NCBI GenBank assembly: GCA_902590355.1
Contig: CACIWI010000002.1
Location: 25,695-89,694 of the forward strand
Origin: an uncultured Prochlorococcus sp.
GTDB taxonomy: Bacteria; Cyanobacteriota; Cyanobacteriia; PCC-6307; Cyanobiaceae
Length of the DNA stretch: 64,000 nt
Direction of reading: 5' to 3'
The notes under the pieces were generated by a model, which was not told where the DNA came from, did no database searches, and worked only from the letters and a program-made list of their open reading frames with translations. A program made the translations under genes and the position numbers. Below are positions 50,797 to 63,850 of the stretch, in pieces; positions within the stretch are counted from its first letter, which is position 1; every line of letters begins with the position of its first letter.

Positions 50797-50908
50797 ATAT
50801 CTATAAACCAATTGACACAGCTTCAATGAATGAACAAACACCCTATCCACCAGTTTTTTCTTTATTATTGACAATCGATTTAAAATAAATATCAATTAGC
50901 TTTTTTTT

Positions 50909-55020: not shown

Positions 55021-55038
55021 TTTAGATCGACTGTCAAA
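55021..55038 (-). repeat. Copy 1 of the TTGACAGTCGATCTA repeat
   Basis: Plus strand TTTAGATCGACTGTCAAA, identical over 15 bp to the copies at 62436 and 62785. On the minus strand it reads TTTGACAGTCGATCTAAA, 87 nt upstream of the HAD start. Confidence 0.8.
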
Positions 55039-55489
55039 AATATTTAATATAGCGGTGCAAGTAGTAAGCGTTTCATTTAATCGTTGACTTTTTGGTCTAA
55101 TAATTCTTTTAATTACTTTGGTAAGTTTAAAAAGAATCTCTTAAATTTTCATTCTTTTCTCCTATATGCAGTATCCACTCTCTAAATTATTCTTCTATTG
55201 CATAACTGTCTTCAACTCTTTTACTTTCAAGAAATGAAAATGAAATGAAGTTTATAAGTTGATTTTTGTTCATGTTTATCTTTTAGGTCTCTATTGTTAA
55301 CTTTTAATTAAATACTTATTAAATAAACTTTTGACTATTAAAAAAATATTTAATTTAAAAATTTAGAAATTTTTTAAACAAATTTATTTTTTACTTAATA
55401 ACTTATTAATCCAATAATCTTAGATTATATAATACTTCTATATTTTTACGCCTTAAATATTGAAGACAATCATATAAAAAAAATAATAA
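55039..55489. other. Non-coding stretch of about 450 bases
   Basis: Only a doubtful 28-codon minus frame (55187-55273) is present. Nothing else is recognised. Confidence 0.4.
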
Positions 55490-55711: not shown

Positions 55712-55896
55712 AATATCCTACCTCTAGATAAAATTTCTATTTAAAATTATACTAAAAACTACTTTTAAAGATTTTTTAAATATATCTTAAATCCGAACTT
55801 CTTTTTTTAATGTTAGTTTACTTCTACGTTCATCCAATTTATTTGGACGCATGATATGAGAATAGGGAACGGGATTCTCATTAACTGCATAAGATC

Positions 55897-57228: not shown

Positions 57229-57420
57229 ATTTATTTCTTAAAATACTTTCACCCTAAATTTATAAAGTTAAAAATAAATTAAAAATTATTTAATTCCCTA
57301 ATAAATCTGATTAAAAATTGACTAACTCAAAATAAAACAATTAATCAGAATTTAAACTCTTTTTTGGAAAAACTTAATCTCTTTAGAGCAAGTTAAATGA
57401 GGAGAATAAATTCAACACTA
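57229..57420. promoter_or_regulatory. Divergent promoter region of the regulator and phn operon
   Basis: A/T-rich. An imperfect inverted repeat CTGATTA...TAATCAG spans about 57309-57350, a plausible regulator site. Pho-box-like CTTAATCT at 57373 is not convincing. Confidence 0.3.
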
Positions 57421-58419
57421 ATGAAAAATTTTTTAAAGATAGTCTTAGGGCTATCAATAATTAGTACAAGTATTTCAAGTTGTGGGAACAAATCAAATGA
57501 TTTAATTGGAGATTTAGATTTATCTGATTGCAATCCAAATAATACTGTTGACAGTAAATATTGTGATCGAGATGGAGATTTTCTCGCAGATCTACCCCTT
57601 TCCGAAGATGAATGGATAGATCCTGAAACCATTGTGTTCTCATATACACCTGTTGAAGACCCCTCCGTTTATGCAAAAGTTTGGGAAGATTTTGTAATGC
57701 ATATGTCTAAGGTGACTGGTAAAAAAGTCACTTTCTTACCAGTTCAATCTTATGCTGCTCAAGTTGAGGCAATGAGATCCGGACGTCTTCATGTAGCAGG
57801 AATTAATACTGGAAGCAATACAGTGGCAGCAGCATGTGCAGGAGCAGTTCCATTTGGAATGATGGCTAAAAAAGATTTATCTTACGGTTATGAAATGGAA
57901 ATTATTGTTCCTTCTGATAGTCCAATTAATTCTCCTGCAGATTTAAAAGGTAAAAAAGTTACATTTACATCTAAAACATCTAATTCAGGATTTAAAGCAC
58001 CATCGGCCATTCTTAAAGGAGAATTTGGTCTTGAGGCAAATAAAGATTTCACCCCAGTCTTTTCTGGCAAGCATCAAAATTCAATAATTGGTGTTGCAAA
58101 CAAAGATTATGAAGTAGCACCAATTGCTAACTCAGTTCTTACAAGAATGGATGCAAGAGGTGTTGTTGATTCTTCTAAAATAAGAACTATTTATAAATCC
58201 CAAACCTTCCCAACGACAGGTTATGCTCATGCTCATAATCTACATCCAGCTGTAGTTGCAAAAGTAAAGCAAGCTTTTTACACCTATAACTGGGATAATT
58301 CAACATTAGATAAAGAATTTAAAAAGGCTGATAGATTCATTTCAATAAGTCACAAGCATGATTGGGATGTTATTAGAAAAATAGATAAGGCTAATGGTGT
58401 TGTTTATGATTGCAAATAA
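57421..58419 (+). CDS. phnD: Phosphonate/phosphite ABC transporter substrate-binding lipoprotein
   Basis: Binds phosphonates or phosphite in the periplasm. ATG 57421 gives 332 residues; a start at 57397 would precede the signal. Signal and lipobox ISSC (Cys 21), then the PhnD/periplasmic-binding-type fold: FSYTPVEDPSVYAKVWEDF, SYAAQVEAMRSGRLHVAG, and TSNSGFKAPSAIL. Which phosphorus compound is bound cannot be told by eye; Prochlorococcus PhnD1-type proteins bind phosphite. First gene of phnDCEE. Confidence 0.9.
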   Translation: MKNFLKIVLGLSIISTSISSCGNKSNDLIGDLDLSDCNPNNTVDSKYCDRDGDFLADLPLSEDEWIDPETIVFSYTPVEDPSVYAKVWEDFVMHMSKVTGKKVTFLPVQSYAAQVEAMRSGRLHVAGINTGSNTVAAACAGAVPFGMMAKKDLSYGYEMEIIVPSDSPINSPADLKGKKVTFTSKTSNSGFKAPSAILKGEFGLEANKDFTPVFSGKHQNSIIGVANKDYEVAPIANSVLTRMDARGVVDSSKIRTIYKSQTFPTTGYAHAHNLHPAVVAKVKQAFYTYNWDNSTLDKEFKKADRFISISHKHDWDVIRKIDKANGVVYDCK

Positions 58420-58449
58420 AAATTTTAATCATAAATAAAATCAGACTTA

Positions 58450-59217
58450 ATGCTTAAAACAATAAACCTCAAAAAGGTTTATCCAAATGGAGAAGAGGCG
58501 CTTAAAGGAATAAACCTAGAAATTCCTAATGGGCAAGTAGTTGCTCTTATCGGTCCTTCAGGTGCTGGTAAAAGTACTTTTATTAGAACAATAAATAGAC
58601 TAGTTGAGCCCACTTCAGGGAAAGTTTATTTCGCTAATGAAAAAAATGACATTACTTCTTTAAATAAATCTAAATTAAGAAAAATAAGAAGACAAATTGG
58701 AATGATTTTCCAGGAATTTGCTTTGGTAGAAAGATTAAGTGTAATGGAAAATGTCCTTTCCGGCAGATTAGGTTACGTAGGATTTTGGAATAGTTTTTTC
58801 AGGAAATTTCCTCAAAATGATATTGAAGAAGCATTCCGTCTGCTTCAAAGAATTGGACTAGAGCATATGCTTGATAAAAGAGCCGATGAATTGTCAGGAG
58901 GGCAGAGGCAAAGAGTAGGAATTGCTAGAGCTTTGATACAAAATCCAATGTTACTTTTAGTAGATGAACCTACAGCTAGTTTAGATCCCAAAAATTCCAG
59001 GCAAATTATGCGATTAATATGCGAGTTATGTAAGGAAAGAAATCTTGCTGCGATTATAAATATTCATGATGTTTTTCTTGCTCAGAATTTTGCAGAAAGA
59101 ATAATAGGTTTAAAATCTGGAGAAATTGTTTACGATGGCAAGCCAAGTGGCTTATCAGAGACAATACTTACAAAAATATATGGAGAAGAAGACTGGTCTA
59201 AAACCGTAGCAAATTAG
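58450..59217 (+). CDS. phnC: Phosphonate/phosphite ABC transporter ATP-binding protein
   Basis: Importer ATPase of 255 residues. Walker A GPSGAGKS (35-42), Q-loop [13 protein letters not shown], signature [15 protein letters not shown] (about 148-162), Walker [13 protein letters not shown]. Starts 30 nt after phnD and is followed by the first phnE after 13 nt. Confidence 0.96.
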
Positions 59218-59230
59218 GAAAATATATTAA

Positions 59231-60028
59231 ATGAATTATAAGAAAGTAATTTGGAAAAGAAAACCGTTAATAAAAAATAGGTTATTGAGAATTGGATTAA
59301 TTTTGCTAATTATTACTTACTTATTATCTGTTTTCCTAACTACCGAAATTGATTGGCAAAGAATTCTTGAAGGGATCCCAAGGGGTAAAATTTTTATATT
59401 TGCTTTTTTCCCTCCAGATTTTATAACTAGATCTAATGAGATTTTGGCAGGTATTTTTGAAAGTCTATGGATGACTATTGTTGCAACTATTGTGGGGATA
59501 CTTATTTCTATACCTGTATCCTTAGGGGCGGCTAAAAACATAGCTCCTAAATTTGTTTATTTCTTATCAAGAGGAGTTATCACATTGTCGAGGAGTTTTC
59601 AGGAAGTTATCCTAGCAATATTTTTTGTTAAGTTAATGGGTTTTGGACCTTTTGCTGGGATGGTAACTCTGAGTTTATCAACAATAGGGTTTTTCGCTAA
59701 ATTATTATCTGAAGATATTGAAGACATTAATAAATCCCAAGCTGAAGCAATCAAATCTACTGGCAGCAGTTGGTTTCAATGGGTTAATTATGGTGTCCAG
59801 CCTCAAGTTATGCCAAGATTCATTGGATTATCTTTATACAGATTGGATATTAATTTTAGAGAGTCAGCGGTAATTGGAATTGTTGGGGGAGGAGGTATTG
59901 GTTCTACCTTAAATACAGCTTTTGATAGATATGAATTTGAGACTGCAGCGGCTGTTCTTATCGTAATTATTTCTATCGTGATGATTGTTGAATATACATC
60001 TAGTCATCTCAGGAAATTAATAAAGTAA
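59231..60028 (+). CDS. phnE: Phosphonate/phosphite ABC transporter permease, first copy
   Basis: 265 residues with about six helices. EAIKSTGSSWFQWVNYGVQPQV (about 176-197) is the EAA loop, and VGGGGIGSTLNTA is near the C-terminus. The stop overlaps the next start (TAATG), so the two permeases are coupled. Confidence 0.93.
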   Translation: MNYKKVIWKRKPLIKNRLLRIGLILLIITYLLSVFLTTEIDWQRILEGIPRGKIFIFAFFPPDFITRSNEILAGIFESLWMTIVATIVGILISIPVSLGAAKNIAPKFVYFLSRGVITLSRSFQEVILAIFFVKLMGFGPFAGMVTLSLSTIGFFAKLLSEDIEDINKSQAEAIKSTGSSWFQWVNYGVQPQVMPRFIGLSLYRLDINFRESAVIGIVGGGGIGSTLNTAFDRYEFETAAAVLIVIISIVMIVEYTSSHLRKLIK

Positions 60029-60843
60029 TGCCAATAATAAAACAAAAGGATTACAAAACCTGGAAAAAATTTGATCGAAAAAGAGATTTACAAAACTGGC
60101 TTTGTTGGTTCTTAGGTACTTTAATTTTTAGCTTTTGTTTCGGTCTGATTAGTAGTAAAACAATCTGGTTTTATGTTTTTGATTCACATAATGAGGCTTT
60201 AGATCTTTTAGGTAGGATGTTTCCTCCAGAAACTAATTATTTCTTCACTTTAATAAAACCTATTTGGGATACTTTAAATATCGCGACTATTGGTACAACG
60301 ATTGGAACTTTAATTGCAATACCATTAGCTTTTTTATCCGCAAACAATACTACCCCAAGTAAAAAGTTTATAAGACCTTTAGCCTTATTTTGCATAGTTT
60401 CAAGCAGATCAATTAATTCAGTAATCTGGGCATTACTTCTGGTTGCAGTTGTCGGTCCAGGAGTCTTGGCTGGCATAATTGCTATCGGATTAAGATCGAT
60501 AGGATTTTGTGGAAAATTACTTTATGAAGCTATAGAGGAAATTGATGAAAACCAAATTGAAGCTATTGAGGCAACAGGGGCAAATAAAGCACAAATTATG
60601 ACCTTTGGCATAGTGCCTCAAATTCTCCCAGCATTTACGAGTATTTCTATTTATAGGTGGGATATAAATATTAGAGAAGCAACTGTTGTTGGCTTAGTTG
60701 GAGCAGGAGGTATAGGGATAGAATTAGATGCTCAAATAGGAGACTTAGCTTGGGCTAAGGTATCAGTTATTTTATTAGCAATAGTAGTGGCGGTAGTTTT
60801 TAGTGAATGGATTACAGCAAAAATAAGAAAGGCTATTATTTAG
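60028..60843 (+). CDS. phnE: Phosphonate/phosphite ABC transporter permease, second copy
   Basis: 271 residues; EAIEATGANKAQIMTFGIVP is the EAA loop, with VGLVGAGGIGIELDA. It shares the family pattern but is diverged from the first copy, so the pore is probably a heterodimer. N-terminal charged region (about 1-22) is longer. Confidence 0.93.
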   Translation: MPIIKQKDYKTWKKFDRKRDLQNWLCWFLGTLIFSFCFGLISSKTIWFYVFDSHNEALDLLGRMFPPETNYFFTLIKPIWDTLNIATIGTTIGTLIAIPLAFLSANNTTPSKKFIRPLALFCIVSSRSINSVIWALLLVAVVGPGVLAGIIAIGLRSIGFCGKLLYEAIEEIDENQIEAIEATGANKAQIMTFGIVPQILPAFTSISIYRWDINIREATVVGLVGAGGIGIELDAQIGDLAWAKVSVILLAIVVAVVFSEWITAKIRKAII

Positions 60844-60888: not shown

Positions 60889-61899
60889 ATGCAATTTTCT
60901 GATAGATATCTAAGTATTTGGGTTTTCTTAGCAATGTGTATTGGATCTTTATCCGGTTATTTATTTCCTAATTTATCTCAATTTATAGGCGGATTAGAAC
61001 TCTCAAGAATAAATCTTCCAATAGCAATTCTTATCTGGGGAATGATTTTCCCAATGATGTTATCAATAGATTTCAAGTCAATAATAAATTTGAAATATAA
61101 GATTAAAGGATTTTCTATTGTCCTTTTTATTAATTGGTTAATAAAACCAGTTGCAATGGCAATCATTGCAGCCTCTTTTTTATATTTTTTATATGGTAAT
61201 TTGATAGATCCTGTACTTGCTAAAGAATATGTTTCTGGAATGATCCTATTAGGAATAGCGCCATGTACAGCAATGGTTTTTGTCTGGAGTAATCTTGCTA
61301 AAGGCGATCCTTTATTTACTTTAATACAAGTAGCTATTAATGATCTAATATTAATTTTAGCCTTTCCATTATTGTCAAAAATTCTTTTAGGATTTAACAG
61401 TATAGATATCCCGTTAGATACTGTTTTCGGTTCTGTAATAATCTTTATTTTGGTACCACTTTTTCTAGCAATATTTTTAAAAAATAAAATCTATAGCGAA
61501 AAAAAAATAAAAAGTATTTTGAATAAAAGTAAAAGTTATTCGTTATTTTTTTTAATTCTTACAGTCTTTTTATTATTCTTTGTTCAATCAAAATCTATAT
61601 TACAAAATCCTATTCATATAATCTTAATTTCAATTCCATTAATAATACAGACTCTTTTTATTTTTTATTTAACTGCTTTTTCAATGAAGTTTTTTAGGCA
61701 AAAGTATTCTATTTCCTGTCCAGGCTCGATGATAGCCGCTTCAAACTTTTTTGAACTTGCAGTAGCTGTATCGATAACTCTTTTTGGTATTAATTCAGGA
61801 GCTGCTTTGGCTACCATAGTTGGGGTACTAGTAGAAGTTCCTTTGATGCTTTATTTAGTAAATATTTCTAAGTCTTCCAAAATATTATTTATAAAGTAA
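60889..61899 (+). CDS. Arsenite efflux transporter, ACR3 family
   Basis: Exports arsenite (III), made from arsenate that entered with phosphate. 336 residues, ten helices; GIAPCTAMVFVWSNLAKGD (about 124-142) has the conserved Cys and is the ACR3 signature; SNFFELAVAVSITLFGINSG near the C-terminus. It follows phnE by 45 nt, and no arsenate reductase gene is seen in the window. Its place in a phosphorus-acquisition unit fits arsenate stress under low phosphate. Confidence 0.92.
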   Translation: MQFSDRYLSIWVFLAMCIGSLSGYLFPNLSQFIGGLELSRINLPIAILIWGMIFPMMLSIDFKSIINLKYKIKGFSIVLFINWLIKPVAMAIIAASFLYFLYGNLIDPVLAKEYVSGMILLGIAPCTAMVFVWSNLAKGDPLFTLIQVAINDLILILAFPLLSKILLGFNSIDIPLDTVFGSVIIFILVPLFLAIFLKNKIYSEKKIKSILNKSKSYSLFFLILTVFLLFFVQSKSILQNPIHIILISIPLIIQTLFIFYLTAFSMKFFRQKYSISCPGSMIAASNFFELAVAVSITLFGINSGAALATIVGVLVEVPLMLYLVNISKSSKILFIK

Positions 61900-62056
61900 T
61901 ATTTTCTTCTTCAAGTTTTTTCTTTAGTTCTAGTGGCATATAAGTAATATCTTTTTTAACTGCATCTATCGCATCTTTATACTTTTGAGGATTAGATAAA
62001 AGCGTTTTTATCAAGTTGTATTGACTTTCTATTTCCTGAGAGGAAAATTTACTCAT
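61889..62056 (-). CDS. 55-aa small helical protein
   Basis: MSKFSSQEIESQYNLIKTLL, then KDAIDAVKKDITYMPLELKK. Soluble and helical. Its 3' end overlaps the acr3 gene by 11 nt, tail to tail. A copy of the repeat lies 27-44 nt upstream of its start. Confidence 0.55.
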   Translation of the reverse strand: MSKFSSQEIESQYNLIKTLLSNPQKYKDAIDAVKKDITYMPLELKKKLEEENITL

Positions 62057-62082: not shown

Positions 62083-62100
62083 TTTAGATTGACTGTCAAT
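62083..62100 (-). repeat. Copy 2 of the TTGACAGTCGATCTA repeat
   Basis: Plus strand TTTAGATTGACTGTCAAT. Differs from the others at one base, which makes the minus-strand core TTGACAGTCAA a perfect 11-bp palindrome. Upstream of the 62056 start. Confidence 0.8.
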
Positions 62101-62153
62101 TTAATCTGTCTTTAAATATCAACTCCTAAAGTAAATTTAATTTTTAAATTATT

Positions 62154-62411
62154 TTGGGTTACTTTAAAAAAGAATTTATTAAATCACTTAAAGTTAAAGG
62201 GTCCATATTTTTAATTGTGTTAATTATTGGATTTATTTACTCAAGTCCAAAATCAAAAGTAATTATTGCAAATTCTTTGACTTCTTCCGCTAAATTTTTA
62301 AACGAAACTGTAGAAATAACAGATAAAGATAGTTGGTTTTCTGAACCTGATTTCATTTTTAGTCTTAGGTTAAAATTACGAGAATTATTGAGAGGAACTC
62401 AAAGAGGTTGA
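62154..62411 (+). CDS. Small membrane protein, 85 aa
   Basis: TTG start. Basic N-terminus (YFKKEFIKSLKVKGS), one helix FLIVLIIGFIYS, then a soluble part ending LRLKLRELLRGTQRG. It is the only plus-strand gene inside the repeat array. Family not recognised. Confidence 0.55.
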   Translation: MGYFKKEFIKSLKVKGSIFLIVLIIGFIYSSPKSKVIIANSLTSSAKFLNETVEITDKDSWFSEPDFIFSLRLKLRELLRGTQRG

Positions 62412-62435
62412 GAAGGAGCTAAATGCTAATTATGG

Positions 62436-62451
62436 TAGATCGACTGTCAAT
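62436..62451 (-). repeat. Copy 3 of the TTGACAGTCGATCTA repeat
   Basis: Plus strand TAGATCGACTGTCAAT. Overlaps the last codons and the stop of the ABM-domain gene (62447), and lies 353 bp from copy 2 and 349 bp from copy 4. Confidence 0.8.
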
Positions 62452-62755
62452 CGTGATATCCAACTTTAGAAACAATATTTCCTGAAACAGGGTCAGTAAC
62501 TCCAAGTTCTGGAGACAACTCTTCCATAAATCCTCTAACCTCATCAAGGTGAGCAATCATAGCTGGTCTTTGAGCTGAAATAGCTTCTGCACTTTTCCAG
62601 ATCCCAACAAAACAGTAATCATAATCTCCAGTTTTAGCGATATATCTTTGAGTCATTCCCTCAAAACTTGTTTTATCTATTACTTCGAAATACTTATCTA
62701 CACAATCAGACTTTAATTTAAATCGAACAACATTCATGAAATTTTGAGCAGTCAT
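62447..62755 (-). CDS. ABM (antibiotic biosynthesis monooxygenase)-like protein, 102 aa
   Basis: Small dimeric alpha+beta barrel. MNVVRFKLKSDCVDKYFEVI, then DYDYCFVGIWKSAEAISAQR and FMEELSPELGVTDPVSG. It matches the ABM/quinol monooxygenase shape; substrate unknown. A hairpin with a T-run sits 8 nt upstream of its start, and the repeat copy 4 lies 30 nt upstream. Confidence 0.7.
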   Translation of the reverse strand: MTAQNFMNVVRFKLKSDCVDKYFEVIDKTSFEGMTQRYIAKTGDYDYCFVGIWKSAEAISAQRPAMIAHLDEVRGFMEELSPELGVTDPVSGNIVSKVGYHD

Positions 62756-62762
62756 AAAAAAA

Positions 62763-62780
62763 GAGGGTTTTTATACCCTC
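62763..62780 (-). terminator. Hairpin with T-run just before the ABM-like gene
   Basis: Stem GAGGGT/ACCCTC, 6-nt loop, T7 run on the minus strand, ending 7 nt before the ABM start codon. It ends the pseudogene's transcript or lies in the ABM leader. Confidence 0.6.
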
Positions 62781-62784
62781 CAAT

Positions 62785-62802
62785 TTTAGATCGACTGTCA
62801 AT
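62785..62802 (-). repeat. Copy 4 of the TTGACAGTCGATCTA repeat
   Basis: Plus strand TTTAGATCGACTGTCAAT. It lies between the DUF3303-like pseudogene stop (62811) and the hairpin before the ABM gene. Confidence 0.8.
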
Positions 62803-62810
62803 CAATTAAA

Positions 62811-63123
62811 TTATCCCATCGCTGCTACTTCTTCAGCAAGTTGTTTATTTCTTAGAATAACTTCTTCATCATTAAAAACAGGAAGTACATTCCATTCAAC
62901 GCCAAATTTTGCTCTCCAAATACCAAAATGTTCAGCCATTTTAAGATGACTGTCAGCTTTGCATGTTACGAAAACTTCTCTGGTTTGAGGAGCATGGACT
63001 CAACTTATCAATTCAAAGCCGTCAAAATTATCCTTAAGTGCGCCGGAAGCAATATATTGTTCAAAGAGTTTGTACCCTTTTCTAAATTCTTTAAAACTCT
63101 TGCGGTAGTTGGGCTTTGGGCTA
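62811..63123 (-). pseudogene. DUF3303-like pseudogene with a TGA and no N-terminus
   Basis: On the minus strand the frame runs from near 63123 through NYRKSFKEFRKGYKLFEQYI and DNFDGFELIS, meets TGA at 63000-63002 where TGG (Trp) is expected, and continues VHAPQTREVFVTCKADSHLK, GIWRAKFGVEWNVLPVFND to TAA 62811. The SHLKMAEHFG...W region resembles DUF3303-type small proteins. There is no start codon before the frame enters the tRNA fragment, so the N-terminus is lost. Confidence 0.65.
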
Positions 63124-63170
63124 TGCCCTCGCCGAGAATTGAACTCGGGGCCTCTCCCTTGCCAAGGGAA
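63124..63170 (-). pseudogene. 3' fragment of a tRNA gene (47 nt)
   Basis: Minus strand: anticodon stem-loop TTCCC TTGGCAA GGGAG (loop with GGC in the anticodon position), variable region, T-arm CCGAG TTCAATT CTCGG, 3' acceptor half CGAGGGC and discriminator A: positions 27-73. The D-arm and 5' acceptor half (GCCCTCG would be expected) are absent. GGC would read Ala, but the G3-U70 pair of alanine tRNAs is not there, so the identity is unsure. Probably a scar of integration at a tRNA gene. Confidence 0.65.
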
Positions 63171-63505
63171 ATTTTTATATACTAAAGCTATTGGTATGAC
63201 TGATGTTAATTGGTATATATTACTAAGTATTAACTATTTAGTGCGATAACTAGTGCGAAGAGAATTAAAGATAAATAAATTGGCGAGGTACTAATTCTAT
63301 TAATAGTTCTACAAAAATCTTTGATTATATTCAGGCTAACTAAAATAATTATTAAGATTAGGGTAAGCTAAGCCATAACCCCTTGTTAGAACTAAATTTA
63401 TTCTACAAATCTATAATATTTAATGCTATAAATACAGTAGTTACACCTACTTTATGTCTTTTTTTGAGCAAGAGCTAGATGCAAAGATGGGCAAATCAAA
63501 TAGTA
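63171..63505. other. Mostly non-coding
   Basis: About 335 nt. A 19-codon plus frame (63454-63513, MSFFEQELDAKMGKSNSNA) overlaps the next gene's start codon and could couple its translation. Nothing else is seen. Confidence 0.4.
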
Positions 63506-63850
63506 ATGCCTAAAAGAGCAACTAAACAGGAAACTGAATTAAGGGTTGCACATGCTGCTGAATTAGTTGCTGAAGGACAAGCCTATTCATCTATTACTTC
63601 CCTTGTTGCCGCAAAATATGGTATCTCAAGAAGAAGAGCCAGGCAGATCACTTCGAATGCTTATCTTTTATTGAAAAATGATATTGAGGAAGGGGACTTA
63701 AATCGCCCTGAAATGACAGCGAAATTAGTATGTACATTAGAAAATGCAATGCATAGAGCAATGAGAGAAAAAGAATATTCTGCAGTTGCAAGTAATGCAA
63801 AAGTCCTTATGAAATTAATAGGTTTAGAAGCAAAAACACAAATTAGATAA
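63506..63850 (+). CDS. Helix-turn-helix DNA-binding protein, possibly phage-derived
   Basis: 114 residues from ATG 63506 (63479 possible). MPKRATKQETELRVAHAAEL, then a likely HTH YSSITSLVAAKYGISRRRAR (about 32-51), and a C-terminal helical part ending LIGLEAKTQIR. The style resembles terminase small subunits or small phage regulators, but this is by eye. No other phage gene is seen. Lies about 340 nt from the tRNA fragment. Confidence 0.6.
   Translation: MPKRATKQETELRVAHAAELVAEGQAYSSITSLVAAKYGISRRRARQITSNAYLLLKNDIEEGDLNRPEMTAKLVCTLENAMHRAMREKEYSAVASNAKVLMKLIGLEAKTQIR

Follow-up and report, generated by a model that had tools for sequence, protein, structure and literature searches.

The promoter-early stem-loop (PeSL) is reportedly a composite promoter-terminator of T4-type phages (Arbiol et al. 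2010; Comeau et al. 2014, as cited in PMC4503421). According to PMC4503421, PeSLs mediate shuffling between T4-like phages but are an improbable source of the ORFs gained by cyanophage S-PM2. Tycheposons of Prochlorococcus, known here from a second-hand description (PMC10872708), are tRNA-integrating elements with tyrosine recombinases. Here we describe a short module, recurring in Prochlorococcus islands, that can be compared with both and with the attC arrays of integrons. Like the PeSL, it appears to pair a promoter with a stem-loop, set between unrelated small genes of variable regions, and it is a point of modular insertion and deletion where otherwise unrelated genes are exchanged, as judged from the junction, breakpoint and with/without data given below. 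The module sequence is, however, a different one, and it has a -10-like TAnnnT core where the PeSL has a phage early promoter. Its main home is the chromosomal islands throughout one cyanobacterial genus, unlike that of PeSLs, which lie in the hyperplastic regions of T4-like phages. Tycheposons share the genus and the islands, and tRNA-linked tyrosine recombinases lie near motif-bounded cassettes at two loci only (L257 and L240), but tycheposon borders are tRNA-derived, whereas the motif borders single cargo genes and is also found far from any tRNA or integrase. With integron arrays the system has in common that its single small genes lie promoter-proximal and point one way, have a repeated site at their borders and recombine freely. 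Unlike integrons, it has yielded no integron integrase in the genomes searched, shows no attC core sequence by eye, apparently uses no attC-like fold as a site, carries its hairpin on the side of the downstream gene, and provides each cassette with its own promoter-like element. The core sequence was found in no paper of the literature searched, which does not prove that it is undescribed.

The window, the whole stretch of 64,000 nucleotides that was analysed (G000:C2:25695-89694), runs to the end of its contig and belongs to a 947-kb assembly that is 59% complete. The first-pass annotation had reported a repeat at four sites, and this was borne out: the core ATTGACAGTCRATCTA, about 15-17 bp long, has four copies in the window, all on the minus strand (Table 1). 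The intervals between the three neighbouring copies had been given as 353 and 349 bp and were measured to be exactly 351 and 351 bp. Chance recurrence had been called very unlikely; 6 matches with at most 3 mismatches were found against 1.2 expected from dinucleotide shuffles, and none of 100 shuffles reached 6. In the host genome there were 26 matches with at most 2 mismatches, compared with 3 for the reversed control, and many of them crowded into the window itself and the opening 17 kb of contig 1. Each interval holds one small gene on either strand, as annotated, and neither of the two genes gave a match in a Pfam search. The cassette of the 85-aa gene (350-351 bp) recurs in at least seven other loci. 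The array had also been said to end at a pseudogene and a tRNA fragment. The pseudogene was confirmed, and its 5′ homology to intact relatives stops at 63079; the tRNA fragment is less certain, resting on an Rfam match with no call by ARAGORN.

Table 1. Features around the core copies of the window (positions within the window)
Feature	Position	Strand	Remarks
tRNA-like remnant	63124..63188	-	Rfam RF00005, 30.7 bits (cut-off 29)
DUF3303-type pseudogene	62811..63079	-	in-frame stop; ends at first motif
Core TTGACAGTCRATCTA / TTGACAGTCGATCTA	62787..62801	-	right border of ABM-like cassette; L206 junction overlap falls exactly on it
Spacer AAAT (completes TAnnnT), hairpin GAGGG...CCCTC (class-2 pattern) and T7 run	62756..62786	-	ends at ATG 62755
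102-aa ABM-like gene	62447..62755	-	cargo of 351-bp cassette; stop codon overlaps next motif
Core TTGACAGTCGATCTA	62436..62450	-	boundary between ABM-like and 85-aa cassettes
85-aa membrane-protein-like gene	62154..62411	+	opposite in orientation to its own motif
Core, G to A variant TTGACAGTCAATCTA	62085..62099	-	upstream of 55-aa gene
55-aa gene	61889..62056	-	downstream of third motif; ATG 29 nt past core
Fourth core	55023..55037	-	U0-type upstream module and class-1 hairpin sequence
Degenerate module TTGACAATCGATTTA	50868..50882	+	2-mismatch relative of core; precedes conserved DUF3764-like gene

Other features of the window are a Glutamine-II riboswitch (55824-55881, plus strand, 52.5 bits) upstream of a 56-aa ORF and, by eye, phosphonate-type-like ABC transporter genes for a binding protein, an ATPase and two permeases (57397-60843, plus strand), followed by an SLC10-like transporter (60889-61899). 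A small HTH-like protein encoded at 63479-63850 (plus strand) matches PHROG 34910, of unknown function, and a similar ORF sits behind the tRNA-Ser integrases of L257 and L259.

Among 313 non-redundant exact sites, position -1 was A in 294 and position +4 was T in 300. Because +4 is nearly always T, the last TA of the core and the following NNNT form TAnnnT, a -10-like box of the kind known in bacteria, which was seen in 96% of the sites. The usual order is core, NNNT, short hairpin, T-run and the ATG of the next gene, with mostly 26-31 nt from the core end to the ATG. The hairpins had a mean dG of -5.3, compared with -1.1 for shuffled sequences, and could be assigned to two classes in 275 of the 313 sites, one GGGGCAATTAGCTCC-like (156 sites) and the other GAGGGATAAAACCCTC-like (119 sites). 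About 13% of the sites (38 of 313, unclassified or ambiguous), including the window copy at 62450, had no recognisable hairpin, and a T-run was present in 79%. Pairs of the class-1 hairpin showed no covariation beyond column composition (0.844 vs 0.837), those of class 2 slightly more than it (0.72 vs 0.66), and an Rfam search found no RNA family at the module. When gene starts were scanned, a core with at most 4 mismatches lay upstream in 248 of 323, nearly all 24-35 nt before the ATG, although this fraction is biased upwards because the loci had been selected by the exact core. The TTGACA present in the module was considered as a sigma70 -35 box and rejected, since TAnnnT, the only conserved downstream box, would leave a spacer of 7 bp.

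The intervals from motif to motif often contain a single small gene, and these many one-ORF intervals of 296-424 bp meet the integron pattern of single-gene cassettes sharing one border site. Within a cassette the ATG is at +27 to +31 and the stop codon 0-44 bp ahead of the next core. Reversed genes are found in a few cassettes, including that of the 85-aa gene and one with a DsrE-family gene; the latter family occurs in both orientations within motif-bounded cassettes (L085; L227/L230/L136). Cargo families include DUF3764, DUF3303, DUF3804 and DsrE. A 40-nt module, ATGAAACGCTTACTACTTGCACCGCTATATTAAATACGA, which we call U0, stands directly before the core after many unrelated genes (37 exact sites, including window 55038-55080 on the minus strand). 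It resembles the first codons (MKRLLL) of a signal peptide common to many secreted island proteins, and the near-identical signal peptide MKRLLLPLLAALALPTAVNA was seen on different secreted proteins (L216, L228, L225, L231, L110, L090 and others), as if mature parts had been swapped behind one leader.

For the analysis of shuffling, 317 non-redundant sites were clustered twice, once by their 100 upstream nt and once by their downstream genes. Two or more downstream partners were found for 42 of the 47 multi-member upstream clusters, and two or more upstream partners for 44 of the 50 multi-member downstream clusters; the large upstream cluster U0 represents the recurring 40-nt module and not a gene end. 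In cluster-weighted identity, linkage to the upstream side extended to position -3/-2 and linkage to the downstream side began at +1, so that the switch falls inside the 15-bp core. The hairpin class tracked the downstream gene (87% concordant, 92% when cluster-weighted, background 50%), whereas concordance with the upstream gene was 53%, or 60% when weighted (background 50 ± 6%, p = 0.08). The borders of gene presence and absence, expected to fall at the motif if it is a recombination boundary, did so: motif windows contained 269 distinct synteny breakpoints against 44.5 expected. Their density was 1.46 per window, 4-fold that of matched intergenic control windows (0.36), with a smaller second peak near the hairpin end.

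The cassettes of the window themselves provided with/without pairs. In locus L206, from another genome, the counterpart of window 63079-62787 runs straight into that of 62452-60001 with an overlap of the 17-bp motif only, indicating that this same neighbourhood lacks the 351-bp ABM-like cassette. In three other loci (L151, L180 and L228) the 85-aa cassette occurs but the ABM-like one is missing, and three more (L137, L219 and L225) have both behind a different upstream neighbour. A simple count of insertion/deletion types (A|X|B versus A|B arrangements) gave 43, a number that label shuffles can also reach (mean 27.5, maximum 45), and for this reason our case rests on the aligned loci, the junction profiles and the breakpoints. 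At the level of sequence comparison, then, the cassette architecture, the junction within the core and the existence of loci with and without a cassette are established, as is the presence of the module on the phage-like contigs described below.

The exact core was present in 145 of 151 Prochlorococcus genomes, and the reversed pattern in none. In a family-wide draw it was found in 15 of 16 genus members and in 1 of 235 genomes of other genera, indicating that, in the genomes searched, the motif is restricted almost entirely to one genus. The sole carrier outside it (G309, locus L252) has a DUF3303 fragment 85-89% identical to copies of the genus, then core and hairpin, directly before a D-Ala-D-Ala-ligase-like gene; because fragment, core and hairpin occur there together, this match is not a product of chance. 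The copies gather in islands, as had been anticipated: adjacent pairs less than 20 kb apart exceeded random placement in four of six one-contig genomes, and the remaining two hold only 3 scattered copies. Together with the breakpoints and the with/without loci, this supports the first-pass reading of a cassette array or recombination boundary. That boundary can now be defined more closely, in that the motif appears to be no attC site of the integron type but the 5′ part of a promoter/terminator-like module. The proposal of a tRNA-associated island was only partly substantiated, by the tRNA remnant in the window and by L257 and L240, where 10 bp separate the end of a divergent tyrosine recombinase (a whole integrase or a fragment) from the core that follows; in L257 a tRNA-Ser adjoins the integrase.

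We favour, with moderate confidence, the reading that the module is both a composite promoter-terminator and an exchange point for single genes, where the promoter and terminator activities, recombination by short homology and phage vectors are inferred. An unlikely but surviving alternative is that the core is the dedicated site of an unidentified site-specific recombinase, behaving like an integron with another site and enzyme. The confinement of the linkage switch to 15-17 bp would be expected of such a site, and so would single-gene cassettes in head-to-tail arrays with few reversed genes. Partners of the same hairpin class were not significantly preferred on the upstream side, even though matching hairpins extend the homology, and the divergent recombinases of L257 and L240 are close to the motif. 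Against these points, the core has no evident inverted-repeat arms, and the module also stands before a gene with mostly constant neighbours. The enzymes that could be named do not fit either. An IntI-type integron integrase (TIGR02249) exceeded the cut-off in 0 of 51 genus genomes. The only tyrosine recombinase in all complete genus genomes, a 389-aa protein, spans 33 of the 34 genera of the family, nearly all of them without the motif, and is not adjacent to it; its gene (L260:2975-4144, minus strand, and equivalents) adjoins a ferrochelatase-like gene family-wide. A dedicated recombinase thus remains possible, with no candidate that fits.

The module also precedes genes that are not shuffled. 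Across 29 orthologous loci of the DUF3764-like gene (window 50868), conservation averaged 0.97 in the core compared with 0.93-0.94 in the flanks, and the neighbours were kept in most of these loci, with different upstream DNA in L296. This gives modest support to the idea that the module may serve a function besides recombination. In L294 the module is partly duplicated in tandem before the DUF3764 gene. Taken further, the module could be nothing more than the regulatory element of a regulon, exchange arising incidentally from general recombination and from selection for correctly regulated genes, without any adaptation for shuffling. The -10-like box, the fixed place of the core 26-31 nt before the ATG and the conservation of the module at this mostly non-shuffled locus agree with such an explanation, which we nevertheless consider quite improbable. 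It does not by itself account for the fixed distance between the core and the 3′ ends of upstream genes, which travel with the core as units, and it overlaps the promoter-terminator at which genes are exchanged, the sole difference being whether shuffling was selected.

Two metagenomic contigs from IMG/VR, the only clearly phage-like ones, carry the module. L057 holds a cupin-like gene, a DUF3764 cassette and modules that match host loci at 90-98% identity. Behind these come genes for a helicase and for uvsX (UvsX family, E 1e-99) that share 79% identity with P-SSM2, and the host-like stretch of the contig stops about 14 bp ahead of the uvsX ATG, not at a core. L060 has RNaseH- and phoH-like genes of T4-like type with a core 3 bp past the phoH stop, and the 563 bp from the core start onward match host locus L191 at 97%. 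Both are short assemblies that could be chimeric, so that these host-cassette borders on virus-like contigs suggest, and no more, a route of gene spread. A scan of viral contigs for the exact core gave 33 matches, most of them chance-like without hairpin context. The 85-kb IMG/VR contig L041, which has a proper module at its end behind a small host-like gene, was not counted as phage because it matches neither known phages nor PHROGs. No isolate phage in the collection had the module; module queries gave only weak unrelated matches, and a DUF3764 protein query gave none. The suspicion that short repeats were misjoined in single-cell (MDA) and metagenome assemblies can be practically dismissed, and for host loci is largely refuted, since, although single-cell genomes supplied many of the loci and metagenomes the phage-like contigs, the core is far below the usual assembly k-mer length, the same cassettes recur across many independent genomes, and 46 sites in assemblies of five or fewer contigs recombine too (at least two partners for 5 of 10 multi-member clusters on the upstream side and for 3 of 10 on the downstream side).

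If the module is a composite promoter-terminator and exchange point, the hairpin and T-run would halt transcription coming from the upstream gene, and RNA polymerase would initiate that of the downstream gene from the TAnnnT box, either within the 5′ arm of the hairpin or past it. Each gene would thus be an insulated unit, and any arriving gene would be ready for expression. As an identical 16-17 bp stands in front of many genes, core copies could recombine with one another and so insert, delete or exchange genes one at a time, precisely at the core. Phages and tRNA-integrated elements with the same borders may ferry cassettes between cells. Only tentatively do we extend this to one module as the genus-wide common currency of islands, tRNA-integrated elements and T4-like cyanophages, in which a fixed 16-bp junction would let single, expression-ready genes cross from host to virus or back, possibly by a dedicated recombinase.

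Few photosynthetic organisms are as abundant as Prochlorococcus, and the turnover of its island genes is still unexplained, given how few mobile elements have been recognised in it. With a 16-bp border to predict changes in gene content, this turnover can be tested directly, as the cassettes become enumerable from sequence, their carriers traceable and their promoters assayable. Such a border would bring a shuffling device of the phage type to the bacterial chromosome and link the gene pools of host and cyanophage.
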